A model generated the notes under the pieces. It worked only from the letters and a program-made list of their open reading frames with translations, was not told where the DNA came from and did not search any database. A stretch of DNA of 30,471 nt from a virus. The stretch lies in IMG/VR virus record IMGVR_UViG_3300027302_000024, positions 1 to 30,471 of that record; one strand, written 5' to 3'. Below, piece by piece: positions 2,372 to 30,471 of the stretch. The position numbers and the translations under genes are program-made. Each line of letters begins with the position of its first letter. The stretch's first letter is position 1.

Positions 2372-2732
2372 ATGCTTGTTCCTCCAGTTTTTCTTGTACT
2401 GACACCTTTGCAGACACCAACAGAGCCTTGTTGTAGGCGCTCATGTTGTATTCGTTTTTCTGATACCGACTCAGCAGCACCCGTATGTAATCCATTGGCA
2501 GATCGCGGATGATGCGCTCGACACGATCGCCCAGTTCGTCGTTGCACTGGCGTTCCCGCACCGGGCGTCCTTCGTTGTCCCAGACGTACCGGGACAAGTT
2601 GCTGTTCCATTCCCGTTCGGCTGACCCGCACTGGTTGGCGATACGTGGACCCCACGACCCGGAGTTGACGAACAGCCCCCAGTTTTCCAGCAGCATTTCC
2701 AGCACGTCAGGGGTGATAGTGGTTTTAGCCAT
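2364..2732 (-). CDS. late antiterminator Q-like protein
   Basis: A 122-residue protein that resembles the phage antitermination Q family of the short type (RWGAW...). The N-terminus LENWGLFVNSGSW aligns with that signature. A single Cys-Asn-Asp motif (RQCNDELGDRVERII) and a sigma region 4-like helical C-terminus (DLPMDYIRVLLSRYQ...YNKALLVSAKVSVQEKLE) follow. Members load on RNA polymerase and let it pass terminators in the late operon. The position after the replication genes and before lysis genes fits. The terminators at 1977-2002, 19401-19424, 24616-24638, 28765-28788 and 30041-30061 would be its natural targets. The assignment is from pattern memory, not a search. Confidence 0.55.
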   Translation of the reverse strand: MAKTTITPDVLEMLLENWGLFVNSGSWGPRIANQCGSAEREWNSNLSRYVWDNEGRPVRERQCNDELGDRVERIIRDLPMDYIRVLLSRYQKNEYNMSAYNKALLVSAKVSVQEKLEEQAYA

Positions 2733-3015
2733 GATTCACCCCCGGACGCACAGCGAGCGACAGCGGGCGCCGGTTGACCGGTTCAGCAGTGATCCCGCCC
2801 ACCATCAACACTTGACGCCCTACCTCTTCAGCAATGGCCAGCCAGTAAGTGTTTTTTTGGCTTTGGCTGCGCTCCAGCACTTGCTCCAGGACACGCCGGT
2901 TTTTGACGCTGACCTTGTCGAAATTCGCACGCAGCACCTTGTCGGCTTGCTCCGAACTGTTGAGAAAAAACGCCAGAAGGCAATCAATCGTTACGTCTGT
3001 CAGTGTTTTTTTCAT
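2725..3015 (-). CDS. hypothetical protein (96 aa)
   Basis: A mainly helical, basic 96-residue protein (MKKTLTDVTIDCLLAFFLNSSEQADKV...). I see no known motif or membrane segment; the C-terminus is rich in Pro and Arg (NRRPLSLAVRPG). It follows the iteron region and overlaps the Q-like gene by 8 bases, so it belongs to the late-control operon. It could be a replication accessory factor because it is the first gene downstream of the candidate origin, but nothing in the sequence proves this. Confidence 0.6.
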   Translation of the reverse strand: MKKTLTDVTIDCLLAFFLNSSEQADKVLRANFDKVSVKNRRVLEQVLERSQSQKNTYWLAIAEEVGRQVLMVGGITAEPVNRRPLSLAVRPGVNHG

Positions 3016-3048
3016 TTCTACAGCCTTTAACTTCTGTTTTTTTACTTT

Positions 3049-3350
3049 GTTAAGGGTTGTGTTAAGGGTTTAAAGCATACCCTTAACATCTTGAACCATT
3101 GGTGCTGTAGGGTTTGTTAAGATGTTAAGGGTATTAAGGGTTTATCAGCCTTGCGTGTGAGAGAAAAATTTTCTTGCTTGTGAATCAGCGTTTATAAAAA
3201 AAATTACTCTCACACACGCGCGCACGCGCATAAACCCTTAACATCTTAACAAGCCACCCTCAAAGCCTTGCGGCTGTTGGCTTGCTGCGTGTTAAGGGTT
3301 AGTCGAAAACCCTTAACACAACCCTTAACATCACTCACAAAACCCTTAAC
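3049..3350. repeat. iteron array, candidate replication origin
   Basis: Nine exact copies of the 9-mer GTTAAGGGT (either strand) and three variants lie in 300 bases without a gene. Exact forward copies are at 3049, 3061, 3124 and 3291; exact reverse copies at 3079, 3234, 3309, 3321 and 3342. Variants are at 3116, 3133 and 3242. Two iteron pairs form a perfect 17-bp inverted repeat (3116-3132 and 3234-3250). Between them is a second inverted repeat (GTGTGAGAG near 3155, CTCTCACAC near 3208) flanking an A/T-rich stretch (3164-3207), then an alternating CG/CA run. Iterons around an A/T-rich core next to helicase and primase genes are typical of phage and plasmid origins. The last copy covers the helicase stop codon. 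Confidence 0.75.
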
Positions 3351-5091
3351 ACATTTGGTCTGATTCGTTACCGCCCAACGATTCGGCAAAAACTTTCATC
3401 TCACTGGCAAGCCAGTCCTGTTTTTTTTGATCCGCTGGACACTGGCCAACAACGATCACCGTGGCCTGTTTTTTTCCTGTCTGTCCGACCGTGTACCAAG
3501 CCAGCTCTTTTCTTTCGTACACGCTGATGTTGGTGCAAAACTTGGTCATGGTGAGCGGCCGCTCCCCAGATCGCGCACAGAAGCGGGTGTATGCCTGATA
3601 CAAATGTTGAGAGAGGCAGGTCATGTACGGCCAACGCAGGCGGTTTTCCTTCCATTCCCGATGAAACACTTGCCAGCCCGGCAAGCCGTATTCGATCAGC
3701 CGTTTTTTGGCCTCAGTCATAGGCGGCTCCAGGTGCGTGTGAAACGTGAAGGTTTCTTCGCGCCACGTCCCGTCTTCATTCTGCACCGAGCTGGTCCACG
3801 TCATGGGCAGTTGCAACAGATAGGCATAGAAAGCGCGAACGCCTTCTTTGTCAGGAGCATCCATTTCGGCTTTAGCACGCTGGAAAATATCAGCAGGCAG
3901 CTTATGGTCAGGCCAGCACACCAGAAAACGCCGATCATTCGGCTCAATGGGCAAGGGCTGATTTTCGTTCGATAGAAAAACGCAATTGCTGTAATTGGCC
4001 TCTTCCCAACCATTAACAAACTTTTTCTGAATACGATGCCTGCTGCCGCTGATCTGATGCTTGATCAGGCCCATGTGCTGAAGACGATCGTTCGGGTTGA
4101 AAATTTCTTCAAACACTGCATACAGATTGCCGCTTTTGAAATCGGTGTATTGCGATGTCAGGTCGTTCTGTCCCAGTGTGGCGCTGTACTTATCGCCGTA
4201 CATTTGCCGCATAATTTCAGAAAAAAACAGCGACTTACCCGCACCTTGTACATGGCCATAAAACAATATGGCCGTCGCCAGCTTCGTTCCCGGCTGTTGT
4301 AAGGGCAACGCCAGCCATCGCAATACAAACTGATAGCTGACGTCACACTCACACATTTCCAGCAACAATTGCCGGATGCCATAGCATTTGTCATGACACG
4401 TTTTAGCGTCGCCAGGCGTCAACGGCAGACCATCAAACGTGTTTATGCATTCGTCGCCAACCTGTTGTGTCGGGTCGAAAACAATCTGATCCTGCATCAC
4501 CATGAGGCGTTTAGCCGGGTTTTTTAGCCAAAGGTCATATTCATTCGGCCATGCCAGGCGCAGCGTTTCTGCCGGCAAGCGAGTTCGAACCCGTTTATCC
4601 CATACGTCTTTTGTTCCGTAGATCAGAACATAGCGCAGGAACATCTCATCCAGCCCCCCGCCCCCCACTGACCGCGCAGCAGCGTCAGCCTGTGCCGATT
4701 TAACGTTTTCCAGACTGATCGTGCGTTTCTTTTCATGCGCCAGCCATTGCGCCGACAGGTCTTTGCCGACCAGGTCGCGGAAGGCCGGTTTTTTCATGAG
4801 CAGCTTTAACTGGCTGTCCCAAATGTCGGTTTTGCCCAGCACCAGGGCGAACCGAAAGAGCATCATTTCGATATTAAATGGTTGATTTTTTTGCCCTTCC
4901 GGCGGTTCCGGCCCATCACTTTCTGGCGTCGGCTCCGCCGATTCGAGGGGTGCGGGGAGTATGGGCTTGTAGGTAGCAAGGGCGGCCTGAAGCTGCTCAC
5001 GCACCACCGACAGACCTCGAAGAATGTGGAGGTCGTTGAAGTCAGTGGGCTGCCCGGATTTTTTCTTTTTACGCTCGAATGGGTGGCTCAC
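3346..5091 (-). CDS. replicative helicase, D5/P4-alpha-like (DUF5906-type)
   Basis: A 581-residue ATPase. Its helicase core has Walker A GHVQGAGKS (residues about 280-287), Walker B-like LYAVFEEI (323-330), a sensor strand VFLSNE (371-376) and an arginine-finger NDRRFLVCW (385-393). These features fit the superfamily 3-like helicases fused to or paired with primases in P4 and D5-type systems. The N-terminal 100 residues are Pro/Glu-rich and low in complexity. The C-terminal 150 residues probably form a winged-helix or DNA-binding part, which in P4 alpha binds origin repeats. The GTG start overlaps the primase stop (GTGA) and has GAGG five bases upstream. The iteron array begins at its stop codon, so it is the likely initiator. 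Confidence 0.85.
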   Translation of the reverse strand: MSHPFERKKKKSGQPTDFNDLHILRGLSVVREQLQAALATYKPILPAPLESAEPTPESDGPEPPEGQKNQPFNIEMMLFRFALVLGKTDIWDSQLKLLMKKPAFRDLVGKDLSAQWLAHEKKRTISLENVKSAQADAAARSVGGGGLDEMFLRYVLIYGTKDVWDKRVRTRLPAETLRLAWPNEYDLWLKNPAKRLMVMQDQIVFDPTQQVGDECINTFDGLPLTPGDAKTCHDKCYGIRQLLLEMCECDVSYQFVLRWLALPLQQPGTKLATAILFYGHVQGAGKSLFFSEIMRQMYGDKYSATLGQNDLTSQYTDFKSGNLYAVFEEIFNPNDRLQHMGLIKHQISGSRHRIQKKFVNGWEEANYSNCVFLSNENQPLPIEPNDRRFLVCWPDHKLPADIFQRAKAEMDAPDKEGVRAFYAYLLQLPMTWTSSVQNEDGTWREETFTFHTHLEPPMTEAKKRLIEYGLPGWQVFHREWKENRLRWPYMTCLSQHLYQAYTRFCARSGERPLTMTKFCTNISVYERKELAWYTVGQTGKKQATVIVVGQCPADQKKQDWLASEMKVFAESLGGNESDQMC

Positions 5092-6140
5092 AACGACCTC
5101 GCTTGTTTATCAGTGACATCGAGGGTCGTCTGCACGTCGCCGAAATCAGGCAGCACCACAGCGGCTCCAGACGCTGACGCGGCTTCATGCGCTTTGGCTT
5201 GTCCCTTACCGTTTTCGTCCAGATCGGCGCAGATCAGCAGTTTGGCGTCCGGACACTGTTTGCGAACCGTCGCGGCGACTGACACCAGGTTACCGGCGTC
5301 AAAAGCGACGACGACCGGCCATTCGGTGGCCATGTGGATGCTGGCGCCAGTGGCATAGCCTTCGGCAAATGCAACAACCGTTGCGCCGGTGAGGTTGCCG
5401 ATAATGTGATACAAACCGGCCTTGCGCCCGTATTTCGGGAACAGCTTGTCGGTTGCGGAAATGGCCTGCAACGACCACAGCTTGCCGTCGACGTCGCGCA
5501 GCGGGATAACAATCGTGCCTTTTTTGAAAAACAGAAAACTGATGTGGTCCGGGCGCGGCTTGGGCAGCTTGTCGAAAAACTTCATGATTTTGCCGCCAGT
5601 GAGCACACCGGTGCTTTGACTGTCGTCGTCAATCCAGAGCAATACGCTTTGATGAAAAAACCGTATGCCGAACCCGCCTACCTGTTTTTTCTTGAGGTAT
5701 TCCGACTCGCCGAAGTCGTGGCAAAAATTCTCCCAGATCTTGAGGCAGTTTTTGGCGACGACGCCTTGCATGGTTTCACGCTTGGCAGTGTCGGCCTCGA
5801 TCTGGGCCTCACGTTCCGCGCGGCGTTGTTCCTGTTCCTGTTTGAGCTGGCGCTTTTCGGCGGGTGTGAGGTCGCGTTTGTTGGGTTTCCAGCCGGTTTG
5901 CTGGGCCAGATAGATGACGGTGCCGAGGGTGCATTTTCCCACGGCCAGGGAGTCCCAAACGCCACGGGCGTCTTTACGGTTGTACGTTTCCGCCGATTGG
6001 CTCCATGTATCCCAATGGCTGTACGCATCCTCGCCGAACTCGGTTTTGAGGCCGTTGCCGACTTTAAACCAAACGTCGCGGTCGTCGGCGTTGATATGCA
6101 ACAGGATGGCGGGCAAATCGTGCAGTTGTATGTCCAGCAT
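5088..6140 (-). CDS. primase with PriCT-2 and TOPRIM domains
   Basis: A 350-residue protein. Residues 5-85 match a PriCT-2-type domain (LHDLPAILLHINADDRDVWFKVG ... split by WDTWSQSAETY). A charged coiled linker follows (90-130, KRQLKQEQEQRRAEREAQ). From about 205 a TOPRIM domain has the acidic Glu in AEGYATGAS (Glu260) and the DxD-type pair in CADLDENGKG (Asp306, Asp308). It would make RNA primers for phage replication with the helicase encoded next. No CxxC zinc finger is visible, unlike P4 alpha. The start at 6140 is chosen because it overlaps the CII-like stop by one base (TGATG). A longer reading to 6392 gives an Arg/His-rich out-of-frame shadow of the CII gene. Confidence 0.82.
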   Translation of the reverse strand: MLDIQLHDLPAILLHINADDRDVWFKVGNGLKTEFGEDAYSHWDTWSQSAETYNRKDARGVWDSLAVGKCTLGTVIYLAQQTGWKPNKRDLTPAEKRQLKQEQEQRRAEREAQIEADTAKRETMQGVVAKNCLKIWENFCHDFGESEYLKKKQVGGFGIRFFHQSVLLWIDDDSQSTGVLTGGKIMKFFDKLPKPRPDHISFLFFKKGTIVIPLRDVDGKLWSLQAISATDKLFPKYGRKAGLYHIIGNLTGATVVAFAEGYATGASIHMATEWPVVVAFDAGNLVSVAATVRKQCPDAKLLICADLDENGKGQAKAHEAASASGAAVVLPDFGDVQTTLDVTDKQARSL

Positions 6141-6637
6141 CAACGTTGCTCCCGCTTCTGTTTGGCCAGCGTTAGCACTGCCTGGGCGGATTGCATGAGG
6201 GTGATGATTGCCTTGTCCAGCATGGCCAGCTCCTCCTCGGTCACGATGCCGTCGTCGTAGGCAGCGGCGACTTTGCGCGTGAGGTCGCCGACATTGCTGG
6301 ACACCTCGCCCAGCTGTACAAACATGCTGCTGTCGCTGACCGTATCGAGACCGCTGATGTCGATCCAGATGGCATTGCCGTAGATGCTGCACAGGCTGTC
6401 CATGATGCGCGGGTCACGGGTGAGCGAGATGATGGCTTCCAGCTCAGGCACGGTGAGTACGTGGCGCCCTTCATTGTTCAGGTTGATTTTGTTTTGCAGG
6501 GTATTGGCGTTGTAGCCGGTCGCGCCGGCGACGGCGCCGACACCGCCGCGCATGTCGTGGACGGCGTGATAGATCGCTGTCCGTAATGGCAGGATGGTCT
6601 GCTCGATGCGCTGTTGACGTGTTAAACCGCTCTTCAT
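6140..6637 (-). CDS. phage regulatory protein CII-like (Phage_CP76 type)
   Basis: A 165-residue protein resembling the Phage_CP76/CII family. It has an N-terminal helix-turn-helix (HAVHDMRGGVGAVAGATGYNANTLQNKIN) followed by the HVLTVPELEAIISLTRD motif seen in that family. A helical C-terminus is likely an oligomerisation region (ELAMLDKAIITLMQSAQAVLTLAKQ). Such proteins activate or tune the lysis-lysogeny choice. AGGGA lies 7 bases upstream of the ATG. It sits between the Cro-like gene and the primase, the usual place for CII. Confidence 0.78.
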   Translation of the reverse strand: MKSGLTRQQRIEQTILPLRTAIYHAVHDMRGGVGAVAGATGYNANTLQNKINLNNEGRHVLTVPELEAIISLTRDPRIMDSLCSIYGNAIWIDISGLDTVSDSSMFVQLGEVSSNVGDLTRKVAAAYDDGIVTEEELAMLDKAIITLMQSAQAVLTLAKQKREQR

Positions 6638-11184: not shown

Positions 11185-11773
11185 ACCAAAGATTTTTGGT
11201 TGGGCCGTCAACTGGGCCAACAACCCACACAGCAACGGTACAGGGTTAATCAAAGCCAACATGTACATGGCCAAAGAACTGGCCGACGCCCGGAGAGAAC
11301 AAGGCGCGATTGTCACAACGCTGTATGCAGAGCCACCCGCAGCTATTCAGATTAACGACGTGGCCGCATTGCAGTTTGCCCATGATGCGATGATCGCCCT
11401 GCATGAGGCGTCCGAACCGGACGATACCCCGGAGCTGAATCCCGTTGTACCCGCAGCCGTTTTCAGCAAATTTGTGGATGATATGGCCCAGATCGGCGGG
11501 ATGCTGCATAAGGCGAAGCAGGCATACCCAGATGCTCGACGCGACCTTCAAAAGCACTTGGATCGGTGCGCGTCCGAGGTTGAAACTTGGCCGGAATGGA
11601 AGCGCGCTTGCTTGAAGCCTGCACCTATTCCTGACGTAGTAGTTGATAAACATTTGGATGCTGTATTGCAGGCTGCCGGATCCGATTTACGGTATTACAC
11701 CATGGATCGCACTGTTGCCAGGATGCGAGCAGCTATGCGTGAAGCTATGCAGGCAAAAGGCGGTGCAACATGA
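11174..11773 (+). CDS. hypothetical protein (199 aa)
   Basis: A 199-residue protein starting MNNEPKIFGWAVNWANNPHS. The N-terminal part has a short alpha/beta motif; the rest is helical (FSKFVDDMAQIGGMLHKAKQAYPDARRDLQKHLDRC). It has no known family that I can name. The start has only a weak AAGG site and overlaps the gene before by 11 bases. It ends with an ATGA overlap with the methyltransferase, so the two may be produced together. Confidence 0.65.
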   Translation: MNNEPKIFGWAVNWANNPHSNGTGLIKANMYMAKELADARREQGAIVTTLYAEPPAAIQINDVAALQFAHDAMIALHEASEPDDTPELNPVVPAAVFSKFVDDMAQIGGMLHKAKQAYPDARRDLQKHLDRCASEVETWPEWKRACLKPAPIPDVVVDKHLDAVLQAAGSDLRYYTMDRTVARMRAAMREAMQAKGGAT

Positions 11774-13440
11774 AACGCCGCCCACACGCCAAACACCCTA
11801 TCTACCGCGTCAACCCGCAGAACACTTTCAACTTTGGCGAGCAGTTGGTCGACAACTTTGCCGGCGGTGGTGGCGCCAGTACCGGCATAGAAATGGCCAT
11901 GGGCCGACCGGTTGACATCGCCATCAATCACGACCCGATTGCCGTTGCCTGCCACACCGTCAACCATCCCAACACCACGCACTACTGCGAATCGGTTTGG
12001 GATGTAAACCCGCGTGACGTTGCACCAGCACACCGCATCGGGCTGGCATGGTTCAGCCCGGATTGCCGTCACTTTTCCAAAGCCAAAGGCGCTGCGCCAG
12101 TGTCGCCCCGCGTTCGCGGTCTGGCATGGGTAGTCCTGCGCTGGATGGCCACACGTAAACCGCGAGTCGTGGTGCTGGAGAATGTCGAGGAGTTTCAAAC
12201 ATGGGGCCCAGTGGTACGCAATGACGACGGCGACCATTACCCCTGCCCACGTCGCAAGGGCCACACATTCCGCGTGTTCATCAACGCCATGCGCCGGCAG
12301 GGCTATACGGTTGAATGGCGCGAATTGCGAGCCTGCGACTATGGCACACCGACCAGCCGCAAACGTCTGTTCCTGATTGCACGGCGCGACGGCCAGCCAA
12401 TTGTATGGCCAGCGCCAACGCACGGCCCCGGCCTGCTACCGTACAAGACTGCCGCCGATTGCATCGACTGGTCATTGCCTTGCCCAAGCATTTTCGATCG
12501 CAAAAATCCGCTGGCAGATGCTACCTGTCGCCGGATTGCGGCCGGGATTATGCGATATGTGGTCAACAATCCGGAACCGTTTATTGTCAGCTACTACGGC
12601 GCGAAAGAAGGCGAGAAATTCAGAGGTCAGGGCATCAGCCAGCCGCTGAAAACCCAGACCACTGAGAACCGGTTTGGTATTGTTGTGCCTACGCTGGCTC
12701 CGATCATCACTGAACACGCGAACGCCAGCCATCAACGCAACTTTTCGGCCGACGAACCGCTGCGGACGCAATGCGCTCAGGTTAAAGGCGGTCATTTTGC
12801 TGTGGTATCGGCATTCCTTGCCAAACATTACGGCGGAGTTGTTGGCCACGGTGTTGAGCAGCCGCTTGGCACAGTGACGACAGTTGATCATCACAGCCTT
12901 GTGACTGCCACGCTGATCGGCGCCGGTGGATCAGAGTATTCTGGCAAGCCTGCACCAGTTGATAAACCCATCGGCACGCTGACCACCGAGAACCATAAAG
13001 CGCTTGTTACCAGTCATCTTGTGAAGCTACGCAATAACTGCATCGGTCAATCCGTAGAAAAGCCACTGGATACCATCACCAGCAATGGCGGTCATTTTGG
13101 CGAGATTCGCGCCTTTCTGATCAAATACTACGGCAACGAATCAGGCGGCATCAATATCAACGAGCCTATGGACACCATCCCTACACGCGACCGGTTCGGT
13201 CTTGTGATGGTGCGTGGCGAGCCGTACCAGATTGTTGATATCGGTATGCGCATGCTGGAGCCGCACGAGCTGGCGAAGGCTCAAGGCTTCCCAGATGACT
13301 ACCGCCTGACAGATTTGAACGGCAAAAAACTTTCTAAAAAAGACCAGGTGCGCTTGATCGGCAACAGCGTTTGTCCGCCGATTGCGGCAGCTATTGTCAA
13401 AGCGAATATGGTCGATGTTGTTGAAGAGGTGGCAGCGTGA
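11770..13440 (+). CDS. DNA cytosine-C5 methyltransferase
   Basis: A 556-residue C5 methyltransferase that adds a methyl group from S-adenosylmethionine to cytosine. Motif I DNFAGGGGASTG (28-39), catalytic motif IV SPDCRHFSKAKG (Cys99), motif VI LENVEEF (136-142), motif VIII PTSRKRLFLIA (RxR at 197-199) and motif X GNSVCPPIAAAI are all present. Between VIII and X the recognition region holds about six related units with a PL-x-T-x-T core (see findings). No restriction partner is nearby, so it is probably an orphan that protects phage DNA from host enzymes. It overlaps the gene before by four bases (ATGA) and the one after by GTGA. Confidence 0.93.
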   Translation: MKRRPHAKHPIYRVNPQNTFNFGEQLVDNFAGGGGASTGIEMAMGRPVDIAINHDPIAVACHTVNHPNTTHYCESVWDVNPRDVAPAHRIGLAWFSPDCRHFSKAKGAAPVSPRVRGLAWVVLRWMATRKPRVVVLENVEEFQTWGPVVRNDDGDHYPCPRRKGHTFRVFINAMRRQGYTVEWRELRACDYGTPTSRKRLFLIARRDGQPIVWPAPTHGPGLLPYKTAADCIDWSLPCPSIFDRKNPLADATCRRIAAGIMRYVVNNPEPFIVSYYGAKEGEKFRGQGISQPLKTQTTENRFGIVVPTLAPIITEHANASHQRNFSADEPLRTQCAQVKGGHFAVVSAFLAKHYGGVVGHGVEQPLGTVTTVDHHSLVTATLIGAGGSEYSGKPAPVDKPIGTLTTENHKALVTSHLVKLRNNCIGQSVEKPLDTITSNGGHFGEIRAFLIKYYGNESGGININEPMDTIPTRDRFGLVMVRGEPYQIVDIGMRMLEPHELAKAQGFPDDYRLTDLNGKKLSKKDQVRLIGNSVCPPIAAAIVKANMVDVVEEVAA

Positions 13441-30082: not shown

Positions 30083-30471
30083 TTAAATCAGGGCGACCGC
30101 CAGCCGACGTTCAGCGGCTGCACGGTCAAAATTCAAAGTGGGTGGTGGCGTTTCTGCCTCGGGCGCCGGTTTGGTTTTCGGTGATGGCTGCTTGGGCGCA
30201 TTTTGGTAGACCGACATATTCCAGGTCGTCGAGTTCTGGGTACCGTTCTGGCCGTTCTGGGCTGCCGATATCTCATCGACGAAGCCTGCATCCAGCGCCT
30301 CTTGCGCGGTAAACCAGGTCTCGGCGTCCATATACGCGGCAATATCCTCAACCGATTTACCGGTTTTGCTGGCGTAGGTGGTGGCCAGCGTATTGTCGAT
30401 TTTGTCCAGCAATGTGGCAGTCTTGGTCAGGTCGTGTTTGTCCCCCCACGCTCCCGTCCACGCATTATGGA
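30083..30471 (-). CDS. ClpP-like prohead protease, 3' part only
   Basis: The 5' end lies beyond the right edge; the frame is open up to 30471. The visible C-terminal 128 residues begin HNAWTGAWGDKHDLTKTA, then TYASKTGKSVEDIAAYMDAETWFTAQEALDAGFVDEI, the classical end of S14 (ClpP)-type prohead proteases. The catalytic Ser is not visible here; the first residue, His, fits the HNPW-type motif near the active site. A Gln/Pro-rich tail of about 60 residues closes it. It would cut scaffold (delta) parts of the capsid protein encoded next. Confidence 0.88.
   Translation of the reverse strand, partial: HNAWTGAWGDKHDLTKTATLLDKIDNTLATTYASKTGKSVEDIAAYMDAETWFTAQEALDAGFVDEISAAQNGQNGTQNSTTWNMSVYQNAPKQPSPKTKPAPEAETPPPTLNFDRAAAERRLAVALI

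Follow-up and report, generated by a model that had tools for sequence, protein, structure and literature searches.

The locus examined here raises the question of whether the cluster of short repeats lying directly 3' of a phage helicase gene is the replication origin of that phage, and which protein would open it. Our answer, drawn from comparative sequence analysis, is that the array is very probably the origin and is opened by the phage's own D5-like helicase (probability about 0.88). The window (the whole stretch of viral DNA analyzed, 30,471 bases) encodes a major head protein, a head protease, connectors, a major tail protein, a tape measure, and a tail fiber, and these head, connector, and tail genes, together with integrase and excisionase genes, indicate a temperate phage. 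The record ends in an HNH endonuclease on one side (1–392) and in the head protease on the other (30083–30469). Neither a terminase nor a portal gene was recognized in its 30,471 bases; the record is therefore probably a fragment or else a cut provirus, and a second site could exist elsewhere in the genome.

All nine copies of TGTTAAGGGT in the record fall within 3048–3351, with none outside, five on the minus and four on the plus strand. Each exact GTTAAGGGT has a T before it (positions in Table 1), and the array also holds one single-mismatch copy (ATTAAGGGT) and two half-copies (GTTAAGATG), in agreement with the nine exact and three variant iterons originally proposed. Allowing at most one mismatch, the window contains 13 matches vs. 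3.9 ± 1.9 after shuffling, and at least 13 were seen in 0 of 100 shuffles. The array sits between the helicase gene and an unknown gene (2725–3015), both on the minus strand, and the last iteron (3342–3350) does overlap the helicase stop codon (3346–3348), as had been noted. It consists of two near-mirror arms with an A/T-rich core between them, so that, read in the direction of the helicase, the order is outer copies, opposed copy, inner block, CG/CA run, A/T-rich stretch, T-tract with CTCTCACACGCAAGG, inner block, opposed copy, and outer copies. The A+T fraction is 0.59 in the array and 0.77 in the stretch 3160–3206, compared to 0.46 in the window. The inverted repeat that had been described as perfect and 17 bp long is indeed perfect, but extends over 19 bp (TTGTTAAGATGTTAAGGGT, 3114–3132 and 3234–3252). 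The near-mirror layout holds for the arms and not for the core, which carries different conserved elements on its two sides (see below).

Table 1. Features of the putative origin and of the adjoining replication genes, in the direction of the helicase after the first line.
Feature	Position	Strand	Details
Two-armed iteron origin, putative (whole array)	3048–3351		Holds all nine TGTTAAGGGT of the record
CII-like (CP76) regulator	6140–6637	-	First of the replication genes; E 1e-22
Separate primase	5088–6140	-	PriCT-2 and Toprim, EGYATG motif; upstream of helicase
D5/VapE-like SF3 helicase	3346–5091	-	581 aa; C-terminal winged helix (residues about 466–550); Pfam and predicted structure
Helicase-side outer iterons	3290–3351	-	Exact copies 3342(-), 3321(-), 3309(-); single opposed copy 3291(+)
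Helicase-side inner block	3234–3252	-	Exact 3234(-), half-copy 3242(-); one arm of the 19-bp perfect inverted repeat
Alternating purine/pyrimidine run (CA/CG)	about 3212–3229		Adjoins inner block
A/T-rich stretch, probable melting region	3160–3206		77% A+T
T-tract and CTCTCACACGCAAGG element	3147–3171	-	Before far inner block
Far-side inner block	3114–3141	+	Half-copy 3116(+), exact 3124(+), variant 3133
Far-side outer iterons	3048–3088	+	Exact copies 3049(+), 3061(+); opposed copy 3079(-)

The helicase matches the Pfam families DUF5906 (5e-15, 56.5 bits) and VapE-like (1e-6, 28.6 bits, cut-off 25), with a weak match to Pox_D5. Its AlphaFold2 model (mean pLDDT 89.4) is closest among solved folds to the NrS-1 primase-helicase (Z 26.9, 353 residues, rmsd 3.8), and the SaPI5 primase-helicase aligns with Z 17.9 (301 residues, rmsd 4.1). 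Given these Pfam matches and the fold matches to NrS-1, SaPI5, and D5, it has a D5/VapE-type ATPase domain. The last 117 residues are predicted to form a winged helix (pLDDT 91), which taken alone has weak structural neighbors, the best being Orc1/Cdc6 on origin DNA (Z 5.4), with the P4 origin-binding domain 1ka8 also found (Z 4.7); Foldseek with the C-terminal domain alone gave no match at E 0.001.

Relatives were gathered by a helicase-profile search of viral and genome contigs that ignored repeats, and loci from earlier searches were added; after removal of near-duplicates there were 119 non-redundant loci, 115 of them not dependent on an iteron search. For each we counted the commonest 8-mer, on either strand, in a 410-base stretch spanning the helicase stop and the DNA beyond it, leaving out low-complexity words; two-letter repeats like TGTGTTGGG are part of the count. 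Just past the stop, 100 of the 119 loci have an 8-mer in at least five copies, vs. 1 of 1995 control tiles from the same loci and 0 of 3570 shuffles. The layout is common to the relatives, and the iteron sequence differs from lineage to lineage. What they share with the window is the helicase and the primase, not the window genes downstream of the array. One helicase relative, in Moraxella phage Mcat7 (L037, 5120–5520), has a best 8-mer with only three copies downstream, and may have GGTGCA-like repeats that escape the 8-mer count. A DNA-only search for two neighboring iterons returned 22 contigs, 13 with a helicase relative. The other nine (L014, L015, L016, L017, L019, L021, L022, L025, and L026) contain at least two neighboring TGTTAAGGGT and no helicase relative in the stretch examined, and their copies could reflect chance, tandem repeats, or elements sharing the initiator. 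Among plasmids, the array had no match and the helicase had weak ones only. Nor are iterons a property of every D5-type phage, none being found after the primase gene in the four distant phages AXL_3, pPM_01, MP1412, and OLIVR4.

Positions in the relatives follow a common scaffold. The first iteron lies a median of 16 bp from the helicase stop and the last about 295 bp from it, the inner blocks keep a 9-bp spacing (85/104 and 117/142 steps), the core is a median 89 bp long, and gaps of about 45 bp separate inner from outer blocks on both sides. The core was defined by the switch from plus to minus copies, found at 94 of 105 loci, so the inner orientation is partly a matter of construction. Its conserved parts are the alternating purine/pyrimidine run and the T-tract with a CGCGAGG-like element. 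Of 94 relatives, 92 have an alternating run of at least 10 in the core half nearer the helicase (vs. 3.6% of shuffles), and 82 have, ahead of the far block, a T-tract and then the CGCGAGG-like element, scored by a loose pattern (vs. 17% of shuffles). The alternating CA/CG run originally noted is present in the window (Table 1), where it also makes a weak terminator-like hairpin (3209–3234). The inner GTGTGAGAG/CTCTCACAC repeat of the same note exists in the window as well (18 nt, 83%), but is not conserved; it exceeded shuffles by the margin used in only 4 of 94 relatives, with the window scoring highest, and was discarded as a general feature. GC skew, suggested as a check, has no turn at 3 kb and is uninformative. 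An Rfam search gave no match, and no DnaA boxes were found in the window.

The proposed comparison with P4-type alpha proteins and their ori and crr sites proved apt. Many relatives have an arm spacing equal to that of the mapped P4 ori. With ori type 1 repeats and crr taken from the annotation of the P4 GenBank record, the ori copies lie, in GGTGAACA orientation, at 0, 10, 21, 43 (opposed), 86, and 96, and those in the helicase-side arm of Pseudomonas phage LPPA56 at 0, 9, 20, 42 (opposed), 85, and 94. Against a null in which gaps and strands were shuffled within each locus, 21 of the helicase-side arms at 103 loci fitted every one of the six sites to within 2 bp (null 0.000), and 40 fitted five or more (null 0.012). 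The far arm, mirrored, fits less well (at least four of six sites in 29 of 103 loci, null 0.058), and the window's own arms match at 3/6 and 4/6 sites within 2 bp. Both spacing and orientation of the P4 type 1 repeats recur in the arms of relatives. Other likenesses are the position of crr directly downstream of alpha, as the array is of its helicase, the EGYAT primase motif (EGYATA in alpha, EGYATG in the window primase), and the C-terminal winged-helix origin-binding domain, which is predicted in the window helicase. However, the P4 iteron is GGTGAACA, sequence similarity is weak (hhalign probability 62%), primase and helicase are fused in P4 and are two separate genes in the window, and P4 has ori and crr about 5 kb apart where our record, itself incomplete, has a single cluster.

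Across 45 sister pairs, iteron change tracks the C-terminal winged-helix region of the helicase and not the ATPase core. Among 104 loci, the winged-helix region had the top rank correlation with iteron distance (0.47, or 0.35 given the ATPase core; 0/300 permutations). As such distance matrices share ancestry, non-overlapping sister pairs were used, in which the partial r with iteron distance, given the rest of the protein, was 0.40 for the winged helix (p 0.0065), 0.62 for the hairpin/tail after it (p 5e-6), 0.06 for the ATPase core, and -0.14 for the linker; the N-terminal part, used as control, gave a weak r of 0.30 (p 0.04), so that some shared ancestry remains in the signal. Most of the covariation is carried by eight discordant pairs. 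The helicases of L125 and L051 are 90–100% identical per 30-residue step over residues 60–480 and 36–53% afterward, while their iterons read TATACAGGGT and TGTGCAGGGT, respectively, with the same two positions changed in most copies and much of the spacer DNA unchanged. These loci (L051, 4297–4635; L125, 4264–4614) look like natural near-chimeras, with near-identical helicases, a diverged C-terminal region, and changed iterons. When covariation is taken column by column, residues 528, 516, and 517 rank high and map to the predicted recognition helix/wing, but high-ranking columns occur throughout the rest of the protein too, which makes this measure only suggestive.

The linkage of array and helicase in about 100 lineages, the P4 ori spacing of the arms, and the covariation with the C-terminal region make an iteron origin opened by the helicase the best supported reading, in line with the original prediction. 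The alternative that survives best, although improbable, is that the array is an operator or an antitermination/termination region for the downstream genes and not an origin. It does lie inside a run of same-strand genes, and terminator-like sites 3' of the helicase, mostly in the core, occur in 51 of 105 relatives vs. 21 of 105 shuffled sequences, with a weak one in the window (3234–3209); their presence in about half of the relatives suggests that the region may serve more than one job. However, the array stays with the helicase whereas relatives do not share the genes found downstream of it in the window, no promoter-like site was found, the arms of relatives carry P4 ori spacing, and iteron changes follow the helicase C-terminal region, in a comparison covering the helicase alone.

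A further comparison is offered by PICIs. In their origins, an A/T-rich region invariably lies between two sets of iterons, a rep-ori of this two-sided layout from a Gram-negative (E. coli) PICI replicates a plasmid, and in EcCICFT073, SaPIbov1, and SaPI5 the origin is directly 3' of the rep helicase gene (PMC6092414). Here, too, two iteron sets flank an A/T-rich region and the array overlaps the helicase stop. The C-terminal domain of SaPI Rep recognizes iterons directly downstream of its gene, Rep appears to bind as two hexamers, and the D5-type helicase Cch2 of SCCmec has a C-terminal domain binding repeats downstream of its gene (PMC7581432), although that staphylococcal element has only three iterons. 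PICI and SaPI iterons are different, and the alternating run and T-tract element are absent from the origin descriptions consulted. Moreover, a PICI is a helper-packaged satellite without a full structural gene set of its own, whereas the window phage has its own capsid and tail genes. We infer that the array functions in the manner of a PICI/P4 origin, in an element that is no PICI and whose replication genes differ in arrangement from those of P4. The array is best read as a self-loading-helicase origin of the P4/SaPI-PICI kind in a temperate phage.

Marginally less probable than an operator is an accessory site like P4 crr, required in cis and bound by the helicase, with the true origin elsewhere. 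Position and similar repeat units recall crr, but there is no second iteron cluster in the record, although the record lacks part of the genome, and the A/T-rich core lies between the arms, an arrangement that PICI origins share (PMC6092414). Iteron arrays can act in partition, incompatibility, or packaging in plasmids and phages, but such a role is most improbable here, in an integrase-encoding phage with no partition gene recognized among the genes scanned and an array that accompanies the helicase gene across about 100 lineages.

For the helicase-opened origin, we infer binding, hexamer number, melting site, and replication activity as follows. In each arm, the C-terminal winged helix would recognize the iterons and one hexamer would assemble with its face toward the A/T-rich core; the two hexamers would then melt this core and set off two forks, and the neighboring Toprim primase would make the primers. 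The layout is a fixed scaffold on which iteron letters and the domain proposed to read them change together, and we propose that each phage lineage has thereby its own origin specificity. More tentatively, and at somewhat less than an even chance, one ancestral arm may lie behind P4 ori, P4 crr, PICI origins, and this phage family, its letters being rewritten along with the winged helix on the fixed scaffold into dozens of mutually exclusive specificities, as a readable protein–DNA recognition code.

The two-sided layout has been termed unique to PICIs in published work, and searches of the open-access literature revealed no account of it in this phage family, although subscription journals may hold one. 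Its presence in temperate phages that encode structural proteins of their own, from many Gammaproteobacteria and Betaproteobacteria, removes that boundary and suggests where satellites may have obtained their origins. The about 100 natural helicase–iteron pairs on one scaffold constitute a data set for decoding how winged helices read origins, and point to phages and satellites that could be rivals for one initiator. Elsewhere in the window (11770–13440) there is a large C5-cytosine methyltransferase (556 aa) whose second half seems internally repetitive.
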